37,029 bases of DNA. Source: Deltaproteobacteria bacterium. Lineage in GTDB: Bacteria; Myxococcota_A; UBA9160; UBA6930. The stretch covers positions 1-37,029 of the forward strand of contig NYZB01000093.1 in the NCBI GenBank assembly GCA_002687015.1, written 5' to 3'. Below, piece by piece: positions 18,792-34,571 of the stretch. The position numbers and the translations under genes were made by a program. Positions within the stretch are counted from its first letter, which is position 1; every line of letters begins with the position of its first letter. The notes under the pieces were generated by a model. That model had not been told where the DNA came from. It was given only the letters and a program-made list of their open reading frames with translations, and made no database searches.

Positions 18792-20003
18792 ATGCGATTC
18801 GGGGTCTTCTACGAGCTCCAGCTGCCGAAACCGTGGGACGATCGATCGGAGCTCCGGATGATCCAGGAGGCCATCGAGCAGGTCGAGATCGCCGATCGGA
18901 TCGGGATCGACTACGCGTGGGCGGTGGAGCACCACTTCCTGGAGGAGTACTCGCACTGCTCGGCCTCCGAGGTGTTCCTGAGCGCCCTGGCGGCCAAGAC
19001 CGAGCGGATCCGCGTGGCCTTCGGCATCCGCCAGGTGATCCCCTACTACAACCACCCGTCCCGTACGGCCGAGGCCGTGGCCATGCTCGACCTGATCTCG
19101 GGGGGTCGCGTCGACTTCGGGATCGGAGAGGGCGCCACCCGTCTCGAGCTGCACGGCTACGGGGTGCCGACGAAGCGCAAGCAGATCCTGTCCTTCGAGG
19201 CCGCCGAGCAGATTGCCAACATGATGGTCATGGAGCCGTACCCCGGCTACGAGGGGGAGGGCTTCTCCATGCCCTGTCGCAACGTGCTCCCGAAGCCCCT
19301 GCAGAAACCCCACCCGCCGATGTGGCTCGCCTGCACGAACCGCAAGACGATCGAGACCGCCGCGCGAAACGGCCTGGGGGCTCTTGCCTTCACCTTCGTC
19401 GATCCCGAGGAGGCCAAGACCTGGGCGGACATCTACTACTCGATCATCCGCTCCGAGGCCTGCGTGCCGCTCGGCCACTCGGTCAACGCCAACATCGCGC
19501 TTGTGACCGGATTCTCCCTGAACGAGGACGCCGAGGTGGGGCGCGCGCGGGGTGCGGATGGCTTCGCGTTCTTCCGCTACGCGATCAATGCCCTCGTCGC
19601 CAACGATCATCGGCCGGGTCGAAGCCGGCTCTGGGACGAGTACGAGGAGCTGCGCGGCCCCGATCTGCCCACCATCCCGTCTCCCGGGATCGGAACACCG
19701 GGAGCCTTCAGCGAGCACATCCGGGAGTTCCAGGAGGTCGGCGTCGACCAGATCATCTTCCTTCAGCAGAGCGGCAAGAACCGCCACGACCACATCTGCG
19801 AGAGCCTCGAGACGTTCGGACGCGAGGTGCTGCCGGAGTTCATGGAGGGGCGCGAGGAGCGGGAGGCGCGCAAGGCTTCGGAGCTGGCACCGCACATCGA
19901 GAAGGCGCTCGCGCGCAAGAGCTGGCTGGCGGAGCTCGGGGACGACGAGATCCCGATCGTGGAGGCGTCCCGGGAGCGCGAGGCCTTCTACCGCAAGGAC
20001 TAG
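18792..20003 (+). CDS. LLM-class flavin-dependent oxidoreductase
   Basis: MRFGVFYELQLPKPWDDRSE...DYAWAVEHHFLEEYSHCSASEVFLSALAAKTERIRVAFGIRQV...AVAMLDLISGGRVDFGIGEG. Confidence 0.92.
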   Translation: MRFGVFYELQLPKPWDDRSELRMIQEAIEQVEIADRIGIDYAWAVEHHFLEEYSHCSASEVFLSALAAKTERIRVAFGIRQVIPYYNHPSRTAEAVAMLDLISGGRVDFGIGEGATRLELHGYGVPTKRKQILSFEAAEQIANMMVMEPYPGYEGEGFSMPCRNVLPKPLQKPHPPMWLACTNRKTIETAARNGLGALAFTFVDPEEAKTWADIYYSIIRSEACVPLGHSVNANIALVTGFSLNEDAEVGRARGADGFAFFRYAINALVANDHRPGRSRLWDEYEELRGPDLPTIPSPGIGTPGAFSEHIREFQEVGVDQIIFLQQSGKNRHDHICESLETFGREVLPEFMEGREEREARKASELAPHIEKALARKSWLAELGDDEIPIVEASREREAFYRKD

Positions 20004-20090: not shown

Positions 20091-20786
20091 GTGATATCCC
20101 ACGTCGTGACCGACCATCCCCACTTCCGGTGGACTCGGCCCGTGCGCCAGGCGCGCAGCCAGGAGACCCTCGAGCGGCTCCTCGACAGTGCGGAATCGCT
20201 GCTCGCCAAGAAGGGCTTCGAGGGCATCACGGTCGCCGAGATCGCGCGCCGAGCCGGCGCCTCCGTGGGCGCCCTCTACTCGCGCTTCCGCGGCAAGGAC
20301 GCGGTGCTGCAATGCCTGCTGGATCGCTTCGTCGCCGAGGCGCGGGCGACCACCTCCGAGACGCTCGATGTCGAGCGCTGGCAGGGCGCCTCGACCGAGG
20401 AGATCGTCACCGAGTTCGTCTCCTTCCTGGTCGAGATCCACCGCACGCGGGTCGGCCTGCTCCGCGAGCTCGTGGCGCGCGCTCACAGCGCCGCGCCGGT
20501 GATCGAGCGCAAGGAAGGGCTGATCCAACACATCGGCGATCGGCTCTCCGCACTGCTCCTCGTGCGCTCGGATGAGATCGCTCATCCCGACCCCGCCTAC
20601 GCCGTGAGCTTCGGTGTGCGGCTCGTCCTCGGCTGCCTCGAGCAGGCGATCCTCTCGAACGACTCGGACACCTACTACGGGCTGCCTGCCTCCGACGAGC
20701 GTCTCGCCGCGGAGCTCACGCGGACCTATCTCAGTTACCTCGGCGTGAAGCGCGGAAGCGATGTCGCCGCTCGACCGATTTCATAG
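20091..20786 (+). CDS. TetR/AcrR family regulator
   Basis: RSQETLERLLDSAESLLAKKGFEGITVAEIARRAGASVGALYSRFRGKDAVLQCL. Confidence 0.92.
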   Translation: MISHVVTDHPHFRWTRPVRQARSQETLERLLDSAESLLAKKGFEGITVAEIARRAGASVGALYSRFRGKDAVLQCLLDRFVAEARATTSETLDVERWQGASTEEIVTEFVSFLVEIHRTRVGLLRELVARAHSAAPVIERKEGLIQHIGDRLSALLLVRSDEIAHPDPAYAVSFGVRLVLGCLEQAILSNDSDTYYGLPASDERLAAELTRTYLSYLGVKRGSDVAARPIS

Positions 20787-20807: not shown

Positions 20808-21245
20808 ATGGCAATCAAGTTCCCCTCCGTGGAGTTCTTTCAGGAGCTGGCGAATCGCATGCAAGGCAATGCCGCAGAGTTCGAGAAGCTGGGCTTCTGC
20901 GACACCGTCATGGCGGTCAAGGTGGACGGAGGCGATCCCCACCTCTACGGCCTGACCTTCTCGTGCTTCGACTGCACCGACGTCCGGGAGCTCGGGGGCG
21001 CCGACGAGCTCGAGCTCGACTTCACCCTGGTGGCACCTCTCGCGCTCTGGCGGGAGATGTTCGAGTCGATCCAGAAGTCGGGCATTCCGGAGCCCGCCTA
21101 CACACTGAACAGCCTCTCCCACGTCGGAGATCGCATGGCGGTCGTCTACGACGATCCCGAGGGGCACGACAAGTTCTACCGCTTCATGGCCACCATCCAG
21201 GCCTTCGTGAACCAGGCCTCCGACCTCGACATCGAGTGGGCCTGA
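20808..21245 (+). CDS. SCP2 sterol-binding-domain-like small protein
   Basis: MAIKFPSVEFFQELANRMQGNAAEFEKLGFCDTVMAVKV...GDRMAVVYDDPEGHDKFYRFMATIQAFVNQASDLDIEWA; SCP2-like layout, tentative. Confidence 0.55.
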   Translation: MAIKFPSVEFFQELANRMQGNAAEFEKLGFCDTVMAVKVDGGDPHLYGLTFSCFDCTDVRELGGADELELDFTLVAPLALWREMFESIQKSGIPEPAYTLNSLSHVGDRMAVVYDDPEGHDKFYRFMATIQAFVNQASDLDIEWA

Positions 21246-21272: not shown

Positions 21273-22403
21273 ATGAGCTACTACGGATCCACCGACTACT
21301 CGTACAACTCGGATTTCAACCTGCGGGTCCGGGACATGAAGAAGGGAAACCTCGACTTCGGGTGGCTCGACGACGCCCGTGACAAGGTCGAGGTCCGGCG
21401 CCAGGACCCGCGCCGCGGCCTGATGCTGCAAGACATCGAAGTCGGGGACTACGCCATCGAGAACACTCCCGAGGTGGTGCGGGAGAATCGGGGGCTCGCC
21501 CCGCGCGGCGCGATCCTGGCCGAAGGCAGCGACCAGCCGGATCTCGGTCCGACGCTCAACAAGAAGAGCGACGTCTGGGGCTACCGCGTGCAGAGCTACT
21601 GGGAGGAGGCCATGAGCCGCCAGTGGAACGTGACCACCGACGTTCCCTGGCAGGACATGGACAAGTACGAGATCCCCGAGGAGATCGAGTTCGCGTTCTG
21701 CCAGCTCTGCACGCTGCTCTCGGAAGTGGAGATGATCGCCACCGACCTGCCGTCGAAGTGGAGTCATCACATGAACAGCCAGTTCCAGGAGGTGAAGGGC
21801 TTCATCGCCACGCAGTGCATCGACGAGGCGAGGCATGCCGAGGTCTTCCGCAAGCGCGCGCTGGCCAACGGCGTGGGCCTGCTGCGCGCCAGTGTTCGCG
21901 GCGAGCACGCACTGAAGGGGATCCTCGAGGCCGACAGCTACAGCGAAGGGAGTGTCTTCCTGCACGTCCTGGGCGAGGGCTTCATCCTGACCCTCTTCCG
22001 CTCCAGCGAGTTCATCTCGCCCACGCCGGTGGAGCAGCGCATGTTCCAGCTGGTGATGCAGGACGAGGCGCGGCACGTCTCCTACGGCCTGCAGCACCTG
22101 AAGTACCTGATGGACGAGTGCCCCGAAGCCCGGCCGCAGATCAACGGCTTCCTCGACGAGGCCGAGCGGCACCTGACCGGCCTCTTCAATCCCGATCAGC
22201 TCGAATCGATGATCGTGCTCGGGGGCAAGGGCACCAGCCCCGAGTGCATCAAGCGAGGCGTCGAGACGGTGGGGGCCTTCCAGGGCAAGCAGATCCAGGA
22301 GTACTTCCACCGGGCCGAGCGCGCGGGGCTTCCGGAGCGCAGGGAGCGGAGCCCGCTTCTCGAGCTCCAGCAGCGGATGCTCACGGCGATCCAGGCGGTC
22401 TAG
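21273..22403 (+). CDS. Ferritin-like diiron oxygenase-type protein, ligand set intact
   Basis: 376 aa; LCTLLSEVEMIATDLPSKW, CIDEARHAEVFRKRA, LGEGFILTLF, MQDEARHVSYGLQHL: two EX2H (EARH) motifs plus partner glutamates. Confidence 0.8.
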   Translation: MSYYGSTDYSYNSDFNLRVRDMKKGNLDFGWLDDARDKVEVRRQDPRRGLMLQDIEVGDYAIENTPEVVRENRGLAPRGAILAEGSDQPDLGPTLNKKSDVWGYRVQSYWEEAMSRQWNVTTDVPWQDMDKYEIPEEIEFAFCQLCTLLSEVEMIATDLPSKWSHHMNSQFQEVKGFIATQCIDEARHAEVFRKRALANGVGLLRASVRGEHALKGILEADSYSEGSVFLHVLGEGFILTLFRSSEFISPTPVEQRMFQLVMQDEARHVSYGLQHLKYLMDECPEARPQINGFLDEAERHLTGLFNPDQLESMIVLGGKGTSPECIKRGVETVGAFQGKQIQEYFHRAERAGLPERRERSPLLELQQRMLTAIQAV

Positions 22404-22433
22404 GAAGGCGAGAGAGGGAAGAGGAGAGGACGA

Positions 22434-23533
22434 TGGCGTACTACGCACGCGACGACTTTTTCAACAATCCGGAGGTCCTCGAGCGCTCGGTCGAGATCTT
22501 CAAGGGCAAGCTGGACATCGGGTGGAAGAACCTCGACATCGAGAGGGTGAAGTGCCGGCCCAGTGATCCGCGGCGGGGCCTCACCTTCGACGATACGAAC
22601 GTCGGCTCCTACGGCTGGGACCAGATCCCCGAGAAGATCCGACACAACTACTCCATGGCGCCGCGGGGCGCCGTCCAGCCTCCCGGGCTCCCGCACCTGG
22701 GCTACGACATCAACCGCAAGAGCGAGGTGTGGGCCGACAACGCTCCCGCGCTCTACGAGGAGTCCAAGGCCAGGCACTGGATCCCCACCCGGGAGGTTCC
22801 CTGGGATGCGGTGGAGCAGCTCGGCCACTCCGACGAGCTCGAGCGTGGGCTGGCCCAGCTCTGCACGGATCTCACCTGCATGGCCACGGCACTCGGCGAC
22901 ATCCCGTCGAAGTGGGTCTGGCACATCAACCAGGAGCTCCTGGAGCTCAAGATGTTCCAGTGTGCGCAGATGTTCGATGCCGCCCAGCTGGCCGACGTCT
23001 TCCGCAAGCGGGCCATCGCCGGGGGCACGGGCCTGGGGCGCGACCACGCGCCGCTTGGCGAGCTGCTGAAGTGCGTGCTCGACGCGGGGAGCTTCCCCTG
23101 CGCTTCGGCCTCCACCCACATCCTGCTCGCGGGGCTCATGCAGGTCCTGCTTCGGCACATGGGCGCCTGCTCGCCCAACGCGGCCGATGAGACGATCGCG
23201 CGCTTTGGCGTGCAGGATGTCTCGCGCTCGATCGCGTATGGCGTGGAGCACATGCGATCCCTGCTGAAGGAGCGCCCCCACGAGAGCACGGGCCTCCGGG
23301 GGCATCTCGACGAGGTCGAGAACGCCCTGGTCGGGTACCTGGCTTCGCCCATGCTCTTCTCGGCGCTGGCTCTCGTGACGGCAGGGGGTCGCGAGAAGGC
23401 GGCCGAGGCCGTGCCGCAGGTGACCGCCCTCTACCGGAAGTTCGCCGACGAGCATCTGGAGAGACGCGAAGCCGCGGGTATCGGGAGTGAGACGAGCCCG
23501 CTGCAGGCCTTCGTGAGCGAGCTCGAAGCCTGA
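22434..23533 (+). CDS. Paralogue of the preceding diiron protein lacking iron ligands (pseudo-diiron subunit)
   Basis: 366 aa, homologous along its length (DPRRGL, APRGA, SEVW, REVPWD, DIPSKW, VFRKRAIA) but DEARHAEVF is DAAQLADVF and QDEARHVSYG is QDVSRSIAYG. Confidence 0.8.
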
Positions 23534-25804: not shown

Positions 25805-26461
25805 ATGCCCAAGATCGTCGATCGCGATGTCCAGCGCGAAGAGGTGCTGCTGGCGACGTGGCGCAGGATCGCCCGCCATGGCGCGGCCGGCGTCACCATC
25901 CGGGGGATTGCGGAAGAGGCCGGCGTCTCGACGGGCTTCATCACGCACTACTTCCGGGACAAGGACGAGGTGCTGGCTGCCGCGCTCCAGCTCTGCAACG
26001 AGCGCGTCTCGGAGCGTGTGGCTGCCCGCGGGCAGGGGCTCGCGGGCATGGCCGCTTTGCGCGCACTGATCGATGCGGTCTTGCCCCTCGACGAGGAGCG
26101 CTTTCTCACCTGGCAGATCTGGCTCAGCTTCTGGGGCCGGTCCGGAGTCGGCGAGCCGCTGCGCCGCGAACAGCGCCGCGGTCGCGAGTCGTGGCGCGGG
26201 GCCCTGCACCGCGTGCTCGGCGAGGCCCACCGTGCGGGTGAGATCCGTCCCGACCTCGACCCATCCTACGAGGCCGAGCGGCTCATCGTGCTGGTCGGCG
26301 GCATCGGCCTGCAGAGCCAGATGCAGCGCCCGCGCTCGTTCCGGCGCAGAGCCTGGTCCTACGTCGAAGCCCACCTCGACGGCCTGATGGGCCCGGCGCC
26401 CCGCTCGGGGGCGGCTCTCCCTGCGGACTCGGATACCACCGTGACAGGAGGATCACCATGA
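25805..26461 (+). CDS. TetR/BetI-like regulator
   Basis: MPKIVDRDVQREEVLLATWRRIARHGAAGVTIRGIAEEAGVSTGFITHYFRDKDEVLAAAL; stop overlaps next start (ATGA). Confidence 0.9.
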   Translation: MPKIVDRDVQREEVLLATWRRIARHGAAGVTIRGIAEEAGVSTGFITHYFRDKDEVLAAALQLCNERVSERVAARGQGLAGMAALRALIDAVLPLDEERFLTWQIWLSFWGRSGVGEPLRREQRRGRESWRGALHRVLGEAHRAGEIRPDLDPSYEAERLIVLVGGIGLQSQMQRPRSFRRRAWSYVEAHLDGLMGPAPRSGAALPADSDTTVTGGSP

Positions 26462-27402
26462 AGCGCGAGTTCCCTTTCCCCGCCTACCCGAACGGCTGGT
26501 TCGCGATCGCCTACGGCGATGAGGTCGCGGTCGGCAGCGTCAGCCCGGTGGAGTACTTCGGCCGGGAGCTCGTCGTCTTCCGGGGCGAGGACGGCGGCGT
26601 GAGGGTGCTCGATGCGCATTGTCCCCACCTGGGAGCCCATCTGGGCTACGGGGGAAGGGTGGTGGAGGACTCCGTGCGCTGTCCCTTCCACGCCTGGCGC
26701 TTCGGCGACGGAGGCAACTGCGTGGAGATCCCCTACGCGAAGCGCATTCCCAAGAAGGCGAAGGTTCGCGCCTGGGAGGTTTGCGAGCAGAACGGCCTGA
26801 TCTTCATCTGGCACCACGCCGAAGGCCTCGCACCCGAGAAGAGCATCCCCGTCATCGAGGAGTACGGCCCCGAGGGCCGGGGCGACTACGTACGCGCGCG
26901 CTGGGTGGTCAAGAGCCGGATGTACGACATGGGCGAGAACCCGGTCGATGCCCAGCACTTCAAGTACCTGCACGGAGGCGTCGCGCCGGATTTCCGGCAG
27001 GTCGGGGATGGCCGGGGAGGGATCCGCAACGAGGCGGATCTCGGCATGCCGACTCCGCGTGGGGACGTCAGAGGGTCGATCACGAGCGAATCCTACGGGC
27101 CGGGCTTTGGCATCGTGCACGTCCGAGGAGTGCGCCACACGATCATCGTGATGGCCAATACCCCGACCGATGAGGAGCACGTCGAAGTCCGGTTCGGGTA
27201 CCTGCAACCTCCCACCGACGACCCGAAGCTCCAGCGCCTGGGTGATGCGATGATCGAGGAGCTCAAGCGGCAGCTGGAGGCGGATATCCCGATCTGGGAG
27301 CACAAGCAGTACCTGACCGAACCGCTGCTCCTGCCCGAAGACGGTCCCATCGCCGAATATCGGAGGAAGGCGAGGAGACACTACACGGGCGAGTTCTTCT
27401 GA
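26458..27402 (+). CDS. Rieske [2Fe-2S] non-haem iron oxygenase, catalytic subunit
   Basis: CPHLGAHLGYGG...VRCPFHAW (CXH..CX2H) and catalytic GENPVDAQHFKYLHG. Confidence 0.92.
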   Translation: MKREFPFPAYPNGWFAIAYGDEVAVGSVSPVEYFGRELVVFRGEDGGVRVLDAHCPHLGAHLGYGGRVVEDSVRCPFHAWRFGDGGNCVEIPYAKRIPKKAKVRAWEVCEQNGLIFIWHHAEGLAPEKSIPVIEEYGPEGRGDYVRARWVVKSRMYDMGENPVDAQHFKYLHGGVAPDFRQVGDGRGGIRNEADLGMPTPRGDVRGSITSESYGPGFGIVHVRGVRHTIIVMANTPTDEEHVEVRFGYLQPPTDDPKLQRLGDAMIEELKRQLEADIPIWEHKQYLTEPLLLPEDGPIAEYRRKARRHYTGEFF

Positions 27403-27448
27403 TGACGCAGGGTCTGGGCATTTCGCAGGGCCCGCGGAGGACGGAACG

Positions 27449-28633
27449 ATGATCGAGATCGACTTTCCGATATTCGACGCAGACAACCACTACTACGAGA
27501 CGCGGGACTGCTTCACGCGCTACATCGAGCCGAAGTACCGCGACAAGGCGGTGCACGTGGTCCAGGATGCCAACGGCCAGGATCGGGTCATGGTGGGGGA
27601 CAAGCCCTTCAAGTTCCTCACCGGGCTCTTCTTCGAAGAGGTCGTCAAGCCCGGCAAGCTCCGCGAGATGCTGCGCGGTATGGGCAAGTCGAACCAAAGG
27701 AGCGAAGGGACGGTGGAGCCCGTACAGCGCGAGTACGTGAACCGCGACGCGCGGCTCGCGATGATGGACAAGCAGGGTGTCCAGGCCTGCTTCATGTTTC
27801 CGACCCTCGCCGTGTGCCTCGAGGAGGACATGAAGGACGACCCCGAGCAGCTCTACGCGAACGTCCACTCCTTCAACCGCTGGGTCGACGAGGAGTGGAA
27901 CTTCAACTGCCGGGATCGGATCTACGCGCCGCCGGTGCTGTCACTCCGCGATCTCGACAGCGCAGTACAGGAGCTCGAGTGGGTCTTGGCACGCGGCGCG
28001 CGGGTCATCGCGCTCCGGCCAGGCCCGGCCTACGGCCGGTCGCCGGCGGATCCCTACTTCGATCCCTTCTGGGCCCTTGCCAACGAGGCGGGCGTGACGG
28101 TCCTCTACCACATCGGCGAGTCCGGCTACAACGCCATGATGAGCGTCCACTGGGGAGAGAAGGCATACCCGACTTCCCACCGTCAGTCGGCCTTCCAGTG
28201 GACCAACTTCTATGGGGACCGGCCGATCATGGACACGATCTCGGCCCTGATCTTCCACAACCTCTTCGGGCGATTCCCGAAGCTGCGCATCGCCAGTGTG
28301 GAGAACGGTGGGTACTGGGCGCCGTACCTCGTGAAGGCCATGGACAAGATGGGCGGCATGGGGCGCAACGGCCCCTGGATCGGTGGGCGCATCACCGAGA
28401 AACCGAGCGCGATCTTTCGTCGGCACGTCTTCGTGATGCCGCATCACGAAGAGGACTTCGCCGGGCTGGCTCGGGAGATCGGCGCCTCGCAGGTGCTCTT
28501 CGGCTCCGATTTCCCGCACGCCGAGGGCATGGCGGAGCCGCGCCAGTTCGTGGACTCGATTGCAGAGCTGCCTCGGGACGAGATCCGCATGATCATGGGA
28601 GAGAATGCGAGAGGGCTCGTAGCCGAGGCCTGA
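27449..28633 (+). CDS. Amidohydrolase family (amidohydrolase_2/ACMSD-like) #1
   Basis: IFDADNHYYE, LYHIGESGYNAMM, HNLFGRFPKLRIASVENGGYW, LFGSDFPHAEGMAEP. Confidence 0.9.
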   Translation: MIEIDFPIFDADNHYYETRDCFTRYIEPKYRDKAVHVVQDANGQDRVMVGDKPFKFLTGLFFEEVVKPGKLREMLRGMGKSNQRSEGTVEPVQREYVNRDARLAMMDKQGVQACFMFPTLAVCLEEDMKDDPEQLYANVHSFNRWVDEEWNFNCRDRIYAPPVLSLRDLDSAVQELEWVLARGARVIALRPGPAYGRSPADPYFDPFWALANEAGVTVLYHIGESGYNAMMSVHWGEKAYPTSHRQSAFQWTNFYGDRPIMDTISALIFHNLFGRFPKLRIASVENGGYWAPYLVKAMDKMGGMGRNGPWIGGRITEKPSAIFRRHVFVMPHHEEDFAGLAREIGASQVLFGSDFPHAEGMAEPRQFVDSIAELPRDEIRMIMGENARGLVAEA

Positions 28634-28666
28634 GGCAAGACCCCACTGGGGAGAGGAGGCGAGACC

Positions 28667-29752
28667 ATGGTTCGGGAACGCATCATTTCAGCGGACTCCC
28701 ACGTGACGATTCGCGACGAGGCCGTGCTCGAGCATCTTGCGAGGAAGTACCACGGCGCCTACCAGGAGGCCCGCACGGCCCATCTGATGCGCATGGCAAA
28801 GCGCGCCAGGCGAGACGAATCCGACGAAGGGCTCCCGATCGCTCAAGCGGAGCGGCCCTGGGAGGCCGCGGGCCGCCCCGGCGAGCACGACTCCGCCGAG
28901 CGGCTGAAGGACATGGACATCGACGGAATCGAAGCCGAGCTCCTCTACTCCGACATCGAGGCCGGCAGCGCCTTCAACGGCCTCGAGGAGGGGGGACGGC
29001 TGGCCGCGTTTCGCGCCTTCAACGATGCTGCTCTCGGCTTCGCCGCTGCCGATCCGAAGCGGCTCCTGATCGTGTACCTGATCCCGATCGTCGATATCGA
29101 CGAAGCGGTTGGCGAGGTGGAGCGGCTCGCAGGGGAGGGCGCCCGCGCTCTCATGCTGCCGGCCTATCCAGGAGCGGTGGGCTTGCCGCCGTACTTCGAT
29201 GCGCGTTACGACCGCCTCTGGGCCGCGATCGAAGAGACGGGCATCCCGATCAGCCAACACGTCGGAGCCAATGAGGCGCTGTGGCAGATCTACGGCTACG
29301 ACTCCACGCAGGCCAAGGGCGTCTTCCAGTCGTTGCCCCCGATCTTCATGGCCGAGATCCTGGCCAACTGGATCGTCGGTGGTGTCTTCGAGCGCTTCCC
29401 GAAGCTGCGCGTCGTTCTCGTGGAGTCCGGGCTGGGTTGGATCCCATATTTCATCGAGCGGCTCGACACGATGCAGCGTCGCCACGGCTGGGACCACTAC
29501 GAGATGATCCGCGAGGCTCCGAGCCACTACTGGCAGCGCAACATGATGGCGACCTTCGAGGAGGACACCTACGGGATCAGTCAGCGCCATCGCCTGGGAA
29601 TCGACAACCTGATGTGGGCGACCGACTACCCCCATCCGGACTGTACCTGGCCCGAATCGCAGAAGGTCCTCGAGACGCATTTCGAGGGAGTCCCCTCGGA
29701 AGAGGCGCGTCAGATCATCGGAGGCAACGCGGCGCGCATCTATCGCCTCTGA
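28667..29752 (+). CDS. Amidohydrolase family (amidohydrolase_2/ACMSD-like) #2
   Basis: ISADSHVTIRDE, PISQHVGANE, GGVFERFPKLRVVLVESGLGWIPYFIERLD, MWATDYPHPDCTWP. Confidence 0.92.
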   Translation: MVRERIISADSHVTIRDEAVLEHLARKYHGAYQEARTAHLMRMAKRARRDESDEGLPIAQAERPWEAAGRPGEHDSAERLKDMDIDGIEAELLYSDIEAGSAFNGLEEGGRLAAFRAFNDAALGFAAADPKRLLIVYLIPIVDIDEAVGEVERLAGEGARALMLPAYPGAVGLPPYFDARYDRLWAAIEETGIPISQHVGANEALWQIYGYDSTQAKGVFQSLPPIFMAEILANWIVGGVFERFPKLRVVLVESGLGWIPYFIERLDTMQRRHGWDHYEMIREAPSHYWQRNMMATFEEDTYGISQRHRLGIDNLMWATDYPHPDCTWPESQKVLETHFEGVPSEEARQIIGGNAARIYRL

Positions 29753-30627: not shown

Positions 30628-31677
30628 ATGGACCGAATGGACCCATCCCCCGTCCAGTCGCGTGCTTGCTGGCGTGCAAGGGACATCGCGGCGGCGACGA
30701 AGGAGTGGATTCACGAGCTCACGCCGGCCGAGATCGACGAGCTCGACGCGGCGTTGGCACATGCCAGGAGCAAGGGGCTCTCCGGCACGCAGGTGACGCG
30801 AAGCGACTTCCCCCTTCCAACCCTCGCCCCGCTGCTGGAGCGGGTCAACGACGAGGTCAGCCGGGGCCTCGGGCTCTTCCTCATCCGCGGTCTACCGGTG
30901 CGCAACTACTCCAAGGAGGACGCGAGCACGATCTTCTGGGGCGCCGGCACCCACATCGGGCTTCCCTGGCCCCAGAACCGCAGCGGCGACCTGCTCGGCA
31001 ATCTCCTCGACACGGGAAAGAAGCCCGACGATACGAGCGTTCGCTACTACGAAACCAACGAGAAGCTCGGCTTCCACACCGATGGTGCGGACATCGTGGC
31101 CTTGCTGTGCCTGCGGGTGTCCAGGAGCGGCGGGGGGAACCACTTCGTCAGCTCGATGGCGGTGCACGACGAGATGGCCAGAACGGCCCCGGAGCTTCTG
31201 GAGTGCCTCTACGAGCCCTTCCACGTCGACTGGCGCGGGGACCATGCGCGGGGCGCGAAGCCCTACTACTCGATGCCGATCTTCACTCGCGACGAGGGGC
31301 ATGTCAGCAGCTTCTATCTCGGCGAGTACATCGAGAGCGCTCAACGATTCGACGAGGTTCCCAGGCTGACCCGGCGTCAACGCGATGCACTCGAGTGCTT
31401 CGAATCGCTCTGCTGGAGCGACGAATTCCGGATCGACCTGCAGCAGGAACCCGGCGACATGTCCTTCATCAGCAATCTCGTCACGCTCCACGCTCGCGAG
31501 GCCTTCCAGGACTTCGACGATCCCGAGGAGAGGCGCCACCTGCGGCGACTCTGGCTCGCCTCGGCCAGGACGGCCCATCGCCCGCCGCTCCTCCAACTGC
31601 TCTACGACCAGCGGATCGGGGAGGCCCGGAGGGAGCTGGCGGAGTCGGGGGCCTCGTCGCCCGCGTTGCAGAGATGA
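30628..31677 (+). CDS. TauD/TfdA-family 2-oxoglutarate-dependent dioxygenase-like protein
   Basis: GLFLIRGLPV, LGFHTDGADIVALLCLRVSRSGGGNHFVSSMAVHDEM, GDMSFISNLVTLHAREAFQDF. Confidence 0.88.
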   Translation: MDRMDPSPVQSRACWRARDIAAATKEWIHELTPAEIDELDAALAHARSKGLSGTQVTRSDFPLPTLAPLLERVNDEVSRGLGLFLIRGLPVRNYSKEDASTIFWGAGTHIGLPWPQNRSGDLLGNLLDTGKKPDDTSVRYYETNEKLGFHTDGADIVALLCLRVSRSGGGNHFVSSMAVHDEMARTAPELLECLYEPFHVDWRGDHARGAKPYYSMPIFTRDEGHVSSFYLGEYIESAQRFDEVPRLTRRQRDALECFESLCWSDEFRIDLQQEPGDMSFISNLVTLHAREAFQDFDDPEERRHLRRLWLASARTAHRPPLLQLLYDQRIGEARRELAESGASSPALQR

Positions 31678-31824: not shown

Positions 31825-32631
31825 TCAGCGGGCTCGGGTTCGGCGGCGGTTCTTGGTCTTCGGCTTTTCGGAGGCCGGGGTCTGCGAAGCGCCAGGGCGC
31901 TGCTGCCTGCGGTAGCTCTCGCCCTCGATGACGACCTGGTAGGCGTTGTGGGCGAGCCGGTCGAGAGCGCTCTGAGCGAGGATGGGGTCGTCGAAGAGGG
32001 GGATCCACTCCTCGATGACGCGGTTGCTGGTGACGATGGTCGAGCCGCGGCGGTGGCGTTCGAGGATGACTTCGTAGAGATCGCTCGATTGCTCGGGGGA
32101 GAGGCGTCGGAGACCAAAGTCGTCGAGGATGAGGAGGTCGGGGGCGAGAAGCCTGCGGAGGATTTTCTCGGTCGAGAGGTCGGCTCGGGACTGGTGAAAC
32201 CAGTGGAACATGCGGTCGGCGCGGAGGAAGAGGACGTTGTGGCCGGCTCGGCAGGCCGCATGGCCGAGAGCGGAGGCCAGGAAAGTCTTGCCCACGCCGA
32301 CGGGGCCGAGCAGGATCACGTCCTCGTGGCGATCGAGGAAGCCGAGCGAGAAGAGGTCGCGCACGCAATCGCGATCGAAGGTGACCGGTGCGTCCCAGTT
32401 GAAGGCTTCCAACGTCTGCTCTTCCTCGAAGCCAGCGCGGGAGAGGCGCGTCTCGAGGCTCTTGTGGTCCCGGCGATCGACCTCGTCCTGGAGGACGAGT
32501 TCGAGGAAGTCGAGCTCAGGAAGCTTCGTCTTCCGGGTGTACGCCACGCGATCGGGGAGCGTGGCGAGCATTCCCGAGAGCTTCAGGCGCTTGAGCAGGG
32601 TCTTGAGGGAGGGGCTGATCTCGGTCGTCAT
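31825..32631 (-). CDS. istB: IS21-family helper ATPase IstB
   Basis: VILLGPVGVGKTFLASALGHAACRAGHNVLFLRADRMF...LLILDDFGLRRLSPEQSSDLYEVILERHRRGSTIVTSNRVIEEWIPLFDDPILAQSALDRLAHNAYQVVIEGESYRR. Confidence 0.95.
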   Translation of the reverse strand: MTTEISPSLKTLLKRLKLSGMLATLPDRVAYTRKTKLPELDFLELVLQDEVDRRDHKSLETRLSRAGFEEEQTLEAFNWDAPVTFDRDCVRDLFSLGFLDRHEDVILLGPVGVGKTFLASALGHAACRAGHNVLFLRADRMFHWFHQSRADLSTEKILRRLLAPDLLILDDFGLRRLSPEQSSDLYEVILERHRRGSTIVTSNRVIEEWIPLFDDPILAQSALDRLAHNAYQVVIEGESYRRQQRPGASQTPASEKPKTKNRRRTRAR

Positions 32632-32823
32632 CGGTCGGGGTCTCCTTCTTGGGGTTCTCGTTCGGGTGGGTGAAGTGCCCTTGCGGGCGTAGAAAGCGGG
32701 GCGGGAGCAGCAGGAGCTGTCCCGGTGTCGGCGGACGTGATATTCGGGACCTAAGAGGACACGAAGTTTTCCGCACCTCCTACTGAGCGATGGCGTGCAT
32801 TCTCCCCGGAGGGAGATCGATGC

Positions 32824-33920
32824 ATGGCCAGGCGACTGAGACAGGAGGAAGTGATGACGATCGAGGTCTTGCATGAGAAGGGTTGCTCGAACCGGGAGAT
32901 CGCCCGCAAGCTGGGGATCGATGAGAAGGCCGTGCGCTACCGGCTGAAGCGGCTGGCGGAGAGCGCGGAGGACGGTCGAAGCGGGAAGGCCTTTCGGGCG
33001 GAGGGTCTTCACCGGGTGATCGAGCACTGGCTCGAGGTCGAGAGCCCGCGTGGCGCGAACCTGCAGGCACTCTACGAGTTTCTGGTGGGGGAGCACGGCT
33101 ACGAGGGCTCGTACAAGTCTGTGCAGCGTTACGTGCGGGCGCGTTTCGCGAAGCCGAAGCTCCGGACGCGTCGCCGGGTAGAGACGCCTCCCGGCGCGCA
33201 GTCGCAGACGGACTGGGGCGAGTTCCGGGGCGTGCGGGTCGGGGGCGAGGCGATCGACCTGCATGCCTTCCACCTGGTGCTCTCGTACTCGCGCCAGGAG
33301 GCCATCGTGTGGTCGGAGCGGGCCGACACGCTGGCGTGGCTCGACGTGCACAACCGGGCGTTCGAGCGCCTGGGAGGCGTGGCCGCCTGCAACCGCGTGG
33401 ACAACGTAAAGACGGCCATCAGCAAGGGCGCGGGCCCGTGGGGAACGGTGAACCCGGCCTACCGTGCGTACGCGAAGACCCTCCGCTTCCACGTGGACGC
33501 CGCACGACCCCGACAGCCCCAGGAGAAGGGCAAGGTCGAGCGCCGAATCCTGGGCCACCGGACGAGCTTCGATCCGCGACGGGAGGCGTGGTCGAGTCTC
33601 GGCGAGCTCCAGGGCTGGACGGACGAGCAGGTCGAGCGGTCGAGCCGCCGCCGTAGGTGTCCGGTGACGGGCACGTCGGTGAAGGAGGCCTGGGAGGAGG
33701 AGAGGCCTTGGCTTGGAAGGCTCCCCGATCTCCTGCCGGAGCCCTTCGATCTCGTGCGGCAGCGGTGGGTAGGTCGCGACGCCACGATGCACTTCGAGGG
33801 CCGGGCCTACAGCGTGCCTTTCACGCTGGCCGGTCGATTCGTGGAGGTGCGCGGATGTGCACGCACGGTGCAGGTTTGGAGCGAGGGCAAGCGTGTGGCC
33901 GAGCACCCACGGGTCGAGCG
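32824..33920 (+). pseudogene. istA: IS21-family transposase IstA, 3'-truncated
   Basis: HTH ...GCSNREIARKLGIDEKAVRYRLKRL; TDWGEF / NRVDNVKTA / KGKVERRI DDE residues; ends abruptly where IS66 tnpC begins on the opposite strand. Confidence 0.9.
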
Positions 33921-34571
33921 TGGAAGCTCGACGCCGATGCGCTTCAGCGCCACCTCCTGGCGGTAGAGCGGCATCCCGTCCACGAACTTCTGGGTGGCCA
34001 CATGGGCGAGGAGCGCCGGCGAGGCGATGCTCTTCGGGATCGGCTGGAGTGGCGCCTTCGCCACCTTCACACCTCGCTTGCAGGTGGGGCACCCGTACTT
34101 GGGCCGGATGTGCCGCACCCGGCGGAGCTTCGCCGGGATGATCTCCAGTTGCTCACTCTCCTCACGCCCGATCTCCACCAGGCGAGAGCCGTCCCGCGCG
34201 CAGACCTTCTCCTCCTCGGGAAGGTCGTGGATCACCTCGATGCAGGGGAGTGATTCGGGAAGAGGCCGCCGGCCCCCTTTCTTGCGCGTGTGCGCGGGAA
34301 CCTGGATCTCGTCTCGTTCCTTCGCCCGAGAGATGGCCTCAGCCACTTCCCGCTCCGCCTCGTTGAAGATCGAGAGCTGATCCGGAGAGACCTTCTCGCT
34401 CTTCTTCCCGAAGCGCTGGTGGCGCAGCAGTCGCACGTACTCGCGAAGCTGGGCAATCTCGGCATCGCGCGCCTCGAGCTCGGCGTTGCGTTCTTCGAGT
34501 TCGTCATTGCGCCGGAGAAGCAAGACGCGAAGCGCTTCGACCGTACTCGGGAGCGGCTCCGCAACGTCCAT
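33912..34571 (-). pseudogene. tnpC: IS66 transposase TnpC, N-terminal part only (no DDE domain)
   Basis: LRHQRFGKKSEKVSPDQLSIFNEAE...CPTCKRGVKVAKAPLQPIPKSIASPALLAHVATQKFVDGMPLYRQEVALKRIGVELPRST. Confidence 0.92.

Follow-up and report, generated by a model that had tools for sequence, protein, structure and literature searches.

Several enzymes combine a catalytically active dimetal subunit with a paralogue that binds no metal; examples are the methane and aromatic monooxygenases, phenylacetyl-CoA epoxidase and yeast ribonucleotide reductase (RNR). In soluble methane monooxygenase (sMMO) and the toluene and phenol monooxygenases, a catalytic diiron subunit is paired with a ligand-less ferritin-like paralogue. 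Phenylacetyl-CoA epoxidase contains a heterodimer of similar folds, catalytic PaaA and structural PaaC (PMC9493321). Yeast Rnr4 lacks the residues needed for the diiron centre and pairs with Rnr2, and a chaperone role has been suggested for it (PMC3824934). R2lox, a further protein of interest here, has the metal ligands E69, E102, H105, E167, E202 and H205, carries a Val72-Tyr162 cross-link and co-purifies with a fatty acid (PMC6060897); alkane hydroxylation has also been reported for R2lox (PMC10867098).

The DNA analysed in this work (the window, a stretch of 37,029 nucleotides) encodes two adjacent full-length paralogues, A and B, preceded by the gene of a small protein, S. The original prediction described A as a diiron protein with intact ligands and B as its partner with all expected ligands replaced. 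We consider it reasonably probable that the product of the S-A-B operon is a heteromeric R2lox-like dimetal oxidase or oxygenase, in which B is a non-catalytic subunit.

Organization of the S-A-B operon

The conserved unit consists of three proteins, S, A and B (Table 1). A and B are encoded on the same strand with an intergenic gap of 29 bases; the B gene starts with ATG at 22433 and ends at 23533. Among 80 genomes from the order of the window we found 13 close orthologues of B (group B1, the window's own included) with 65-100% identity, and a second group, B2, with 45-48% identity. Gene order is S-A-B in A1/B1 and in Binatota, and S-B-A in A2/B2. Of 42 B loci, 39 have S, and two of the three without it lie at contig ends; S also accompanies solo A at loci without B. 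The TetR-family gene ends about 20 bases before S, and a TetR gene is located upstream of S in 10/13 A1/B1 context loci; the encoded protein probably regulates the operon. The Binatota units have genes for a DsbA-like protein, an ABC transporter and an Smr protein as neighbours. Among the locus contexts compared, Binatota included, no gene beyond S-A-B was consistently linked and no reductase or ferredoxin gene was conserved nearby.

Table 1. Positions of the S-A-B operon and of other features in the window.
Feature	Position	Strand	Basis
Luciferase-like monooxygenase	18792..20003		
TetR-family regulator	20091..20786	+	Pfam TetR_N, E 5e-14
S, 145-aa SCP2-like (sterol-carrier-fold) protein	20808..21245	+	PDB profile matches, Foldseek
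A, 376-aa R2-like dimetal-carboxylate protein, full ligand set	21273..22403	+	Alignment, NCBIfam, PDB fold
B, 366-aa paralogue of A, every ligand replaced	22433..23533	+	Alignment, selection, adjacency to A, model
Rieske oxygenase (KshA-type C-terminus), two adjoining Amidohydro_2 proteins, TauD-family dioxygenase	26458..29752 and 30628..31677		
IstB-like ATPase (IS21 transposition), long frame	31825..34092	-	

The luciferase-like monooxygenase gene lies just 5' of the TetR-S-A-B operon. Since a homologue was found near the A/B pair at only one other locus (L045), this gene is probably outside the unit. On the other side of the operon, the Rieske, Amidohydro_2 and TauD-family genes look like a ring- or lipid-degradation region, and a mobile element marked by the IstB-like ATPase is found at a distance of about 8 kb.

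A and B align end to end with 35% identity over 365 columns, and the BLASTP E value of 2e-73 indicates that the similarity is not due to chance. The tandem full-length paralogues had been placed correctly at 21273-23533, and the four motif pairings originally aligned by eye are all gap-free in the A/B alignment. The ligand set of A comprises E151/E153 (helix 1), E185xxH188 (helix 2), E235 (helix 3) and E265xxH268 (helix 4). The corresponding residues of B (A numbering) are C/A at 151/153, A at 185, L at 188, A at 235, V at 265 and S at 268.

Linkage of B to A and the predicted complex

We surveyed 378 genomes of Myxococcota, the phylum of the window. Thirty B genes are carried by 22 of these genomes, and A is adjacent on the same strand in 30/30 cases. 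A candidate B without A (G211:C522) was rejected, as the A gene is found there, truncated by the contig end. In a wider scan with the B profile against a collection of 85,462 species, 47 loci were detected, 42 of them with B, and A is located next to B in 40/42. The two exceptions are L109, at a contig end, and L095, a metagenome-assembled genome (MAG) in which B is unlinked from A and S-A is found on another contig (L113). Both surveys thus bear out the expected co-occurrence of the ligand-less paralogue with the intact one, and the opposite situation, a B normally found without A, did not occur.

The carriers of S-A-B are uncultured soil and marine bacteria, represented by MAGs labelled Deltaproteobacteria, Myxococcota or Candidatus Binatia/Binataceae. 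One record (L111) is titled Klebsiella pneumoniae; its S-A-B unit is almost identical to that of a Deltaproteobacteria MAG (L099), and the label is most likely wrong. A plasmid search for an annotated relative gave one weak match only (27% coverage, in a Nonomuraea record). At L085 (6679-6995; the same locus as L118 and L126), S is split over two frames by a frameshift in the gene or in the assembly. An apparent S-A gene fusion at L112 was discarded as an artefact, the joined frame passing through a stretch of N bases in the assembled sequence.

A also exists without B: the A3 group and loci L097, L100 and L114 have intact A and S only. The S-A units of the A3 group, L097 and L100 indicate that B is not needed for basic activity. 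They also bear on an alternative role of B as mainly a maturation partner, which keeps A able to take up metal or the right cofactor and stays outside the working catalytic complex. Such a role has a precedent of the same fold class in Rnr4, the Rnr2 partner without diiron residues for which a chaperone function has been suggested (PMC3824934), and it would agree with the 1:1 linkage of the B and A genes; however, A retains all its ligands in S-A units without B, so metallation does not generally need B, and we regard a maturation partner as unlikely. The gene order, S-A-B or S-B-A, is uninformative either way.

At several loci A and B share a reading frame that is interrupted by just one stop, so that natural DNA read through the stop gives an A-linker-B chain. 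The AlphaFold2 model of the L012 chain has a pTM of 0.89 and a mean pLDDT of 87, with disorder only at the N-terminus and in the linker. Mixed alignments of linked and single chains were left out because A rows fell on the B half, or S rows were split. A pTM of 0.89 for two separate domains means a confident mutual placement in the model, which agrees with an A/B heterodimer and does not by itself prove one: the linker may favour contact and homodimers are common in the R2 fold, so the value is also compatible with separate homodimers of A and of B. The heteromer of the original prediction is predicted by modelling of the linked pair, with the two homodimers still compatible. By Foldseek, the nearest folds of the model are R2lox, then MMO hydroxylase alpha, class I R2 and VlmB.

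Separate homodimers would suit another alternative, in which B no longer takes part in oxidation chemistry but forms its own homodimer with a separate role, e.g., binding or sensing of a hydrophobic ligand in what was once the substrate channel, its only tie to A being co-expression. The median dN is 0.166 for B vs 0.072 for A, a roughly twofold difference in rate, and the ligand positions of B carry hydrophobic residues, both in line with a changed function, but the near-perfect linkage, the adjacency kept across Myxococcota and Binatota in either gene order, and the confident joint placement with A in the model argue against it and make a separate role of B rather improbable.

Protein S had no Pfam match, and PF02036 was unmatched in 17 S members at E up to 10. 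The best PDB matches of the S profile are the SCP2 chains 2cx7 and 1wfr (E 0.02); no match of the profile to SCP2 sequences from related genomes was obtained, and the alignment was poor. A read-through S-A-B chain (L068, 921 residues) was modelled with a lower pTM, 0.73, and with shallower rows for A and B. The S fold in this model matches 1wfr, a Thermus SCP2-like protein (Foldseek E 0.021, prob 1.00, TMt 0.66, 147 columns), and S is predicted to have an SCP2-like fold. Docking of S on A/B is therefore unsupported by this chain, although the test was a weak one. Distant S-like proteins were found at L177, L178, L179 and L180 (E 1e-10 to 1e-20), some of them in genomes of the order in which no A was found (G070, G017, G043), which suggests a wider SCP2-like subfamily with other partners.

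Loss of the metal site in B

All seven ligand positions are retained in 51/51 distinct A-type sequences and lost in 21/21 distinct window-type B sequences (B1 and B2), in agreement with the replacement of every ligand in all B1/B2 orthologues examined in the 80 genomes. The helix-1 ligand is either E151 or E153; both residues are invariant in A and gone from B1/B2. The replacement residues in B1/B2 are S, A, C, G, V, L, I, M, T, F, P and Y, with Asp, Glu or His in 0/21 sequences. One residue that does not vary among B1/B2 is Cys177. In the full set of 44 B, E235, E265 and H268 are absent from 44/44, and E185 is retained in 5, H188 in 9 and E151 in 20, all of Binatota type. Ligand loss is therefore graded: some Binatota B keep E151, E185 and H188, and B1/B2 keep none. 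The predicted replacement of all ligands holds for window-type B, whereas in Binatota B the loss is only partial.

The residues retained in some Binatota B, E151, E185 and H188, form one side of the site and could be taken to indicate that B has kept the ability to bind one metal, or relies on different ligands, as a half-site or changed-site enzyme. We find this very unlikely: the three residues of the other side are missing from every B, Asp, Glu and His are absent from all the ligand positions in window-type B, and in several lineages the partial sites that are left are eroding.

The median dN/dS was 0.08 for A1, 0.14 for B1, 0.11 for A2 and 0.23 for B2. B is under purifying selection and is not decaying, as had been proposed from its sequence and is now supported by the dN/dS of about 0.14 for B1 and by the 13 orthologues with 65-100% identity. 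A decaying duplicate without function, as the loss of all ligands and the faster evolution might suggest, can practically be dismissed, since it is contradicted by the dN/dS range of 0.14-0.23, by the full length of B, with no stops and with B-specific positions conserved across two phyla, and by the retention of a single old duplication in every lineage with the pair.

In an unrooted tree of 95 sequences, all A are separated from all B on one branch with support of 100/100. A and B come from a single old duplication, and the one-branch split indicates that B arose once. A and B each diverge along the same lineages, and their distances correlate at 0.975 over 44 loci, a value that includes shared species history. 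On the unrooted tree, the simplest reading is that the common ancestor of B had already lost the C-terminal half of the site and that what remained decayed afterwards on more than one occasion. Of everything found, A is the closest relative of B, which supports the view that this metal-less partner was made independently of the known monooxygenase beta subunits. The independent version of the catalytic/non-metal pairing first envisaged from the sequence would thus have arisen by duplication inside the A/B family, with no Pfam match to known monooxygenase families.

Working model and comparison with known systems

In the heteromeric enzyme that we favour, A would hold the dimetal site (Fe/Fe or Mn/Fe) and activate O2. 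B, a duplicate of A without the metal site, is predicted to pair with A as the non-catalytic subunit; it may stabilise A and influence how substrate or electrons reach A, in the manner of PaaC towards PaaA and of MMO beta towards alpha. S could hold or deliver a hydrophobic substrate, fatty-acyl or sterol-like, the lipid analogy being drawn from the SCP2 fold of S and from R2lox, with its bound fatty acid (PMC6060897) and the alkane hydroxylation reported for it (PMC10867098). The operon would be controlled by the TetR protein, and the electrons would be supplied by a shared donor whose gene lies elsewhere. The B-A linkage, the single A/B split with divergence of both along the same lineages, and the constraint on B were observed directly; together with the confident linked-chain model, the R2lox, MMO alpha and R2 folds as nearest matches, the company of S with A, and the small or hydrophobic residues at the ligand positions of B, they speak for this heteromer. 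Against it stand the use of a linked chain, the lack of a conserved reductase or ferredoxin, the unsupported docking of S, the S-A units that have no B, and the unlinked B of L095.

More tentatively, the unit may represent a new three-component oxygenase class, with an R2lox-like A/B heterodimer, a stepwise loss of the B site (the C-terminal half, then the N-terminal half in several lineages), and a dedicated SCP2-type carrier presenting a lipid substrate. If so, the pairing of a catalytic subunit with a dead paralogue would have been invented independently once more, here with surviving intermediates. S-A units lacking B, B with a partial site and B that has lost the site entirely all occur in living lineages, so that the sequence of the loss and what B contributes are directly testable. 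If S delivers the substrate, a diiron enzyme would here have a lipid carrier of its own, in bacteria (labelled Myxococcota, Deltaproteobacteria and Binatia) whose O2-dependent lipid chemistry is poorly mapped.

R2lox (NF006200, PDB 4hr0 and related) is both the nearest sequence family and the nearest fold to A. NF006200 is the best NCBIfam match of A (E 1.4e-6), with 27.8 bits vs a cut-off of 194; the A-type relatives score 22-35 bits, and A is below every curated family cut-off. Weak Pfam matches of A were to the RNR small chain, DUF455 and AurF. The top Foldseek matches (TMt 0.50-0.69) have the R2-like fold, and the Glu/ExxH/Glu/ExxH pattern, equivalent to the six R2lox ligands, is present in 51/51 A and lost in B. 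A differs from R2lox in its low identity (∼14%), its greater length and the absence of a Tyr ahead of the helix-3 Glu: by motif spacing, A has Leu/Met at position 230 and no Tyr in 227-243, vs Tyr162 of R2lox, 5 residues before E167, so that the Tyr of the cross-link is lacking in A. A is R2-like by fold and ligands and is not R2lox by membership. To our knowledge, no metal-less partner or SCP2 gene accompanies R2lox. The genome that carries A (G000) encodes about 10 further proteins with local similarity to A around ExxH (E 3e-12 to 3e-4), on contigs C174, C146, C7, C31, C71, C240, C168, C111 and C18, so that R2/AurF-like dimetal proteins are numerous in it. The SCP2 family resembles S in fold and, weakly, in sequence (1wfr, 2cx7); S fails to reach the Pfam model of this family.

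The soluble diiron monooxygenases resemble the S-A-B unit in having a small extra protein in the operon, and MMO alpha is among the Foldseek matches of the A/B model; they differ by a separate duplication and by the reductase gene that S-A-B lacks. Neither A, B nor 31 related rows matched the hydroxylase alpha/beta families in Pfam (E up to 1), S had no Pfam match to the effector family, and no reductase or effector genes of this type are conserved near S-A-B. PaaA/PaaC is the closest architecture to A/B; the same sequences (A, B and 31 related rows) had no Pfam match to PaaA_PaaC, and no PaaB, PaaD or PaaE genes or CoA-ester pathway are conserved around the unit. Yeast Rnr2/Rnr4 likewise combines an active R2 with a paralogue without diiron ligands, but it is eukaryotic and radical-generating and has no SCP2-like gene. 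The genes and ligand states of A and B fit the pairing of a catalytic subunit with a ligand-less partner, and their complex is predicted. The original prediction recognized the A/B pair and missed S, the graded ligand loss, PaaA/PaaC and Rnr2/Rnr4; in view of the latter two precedents, the principle is less unusual than it implied. No published description of the A/B family was found in the open-licence literature. The combination of a catalytic subunit with a dead paralogue is already known from MMO, PaaA/PaaC and Rnr2/Rnr4, and what appears to be new is the A/B family itself, its independent origin, its SCP2-like partner and its surviving intermediates of ligand loss.
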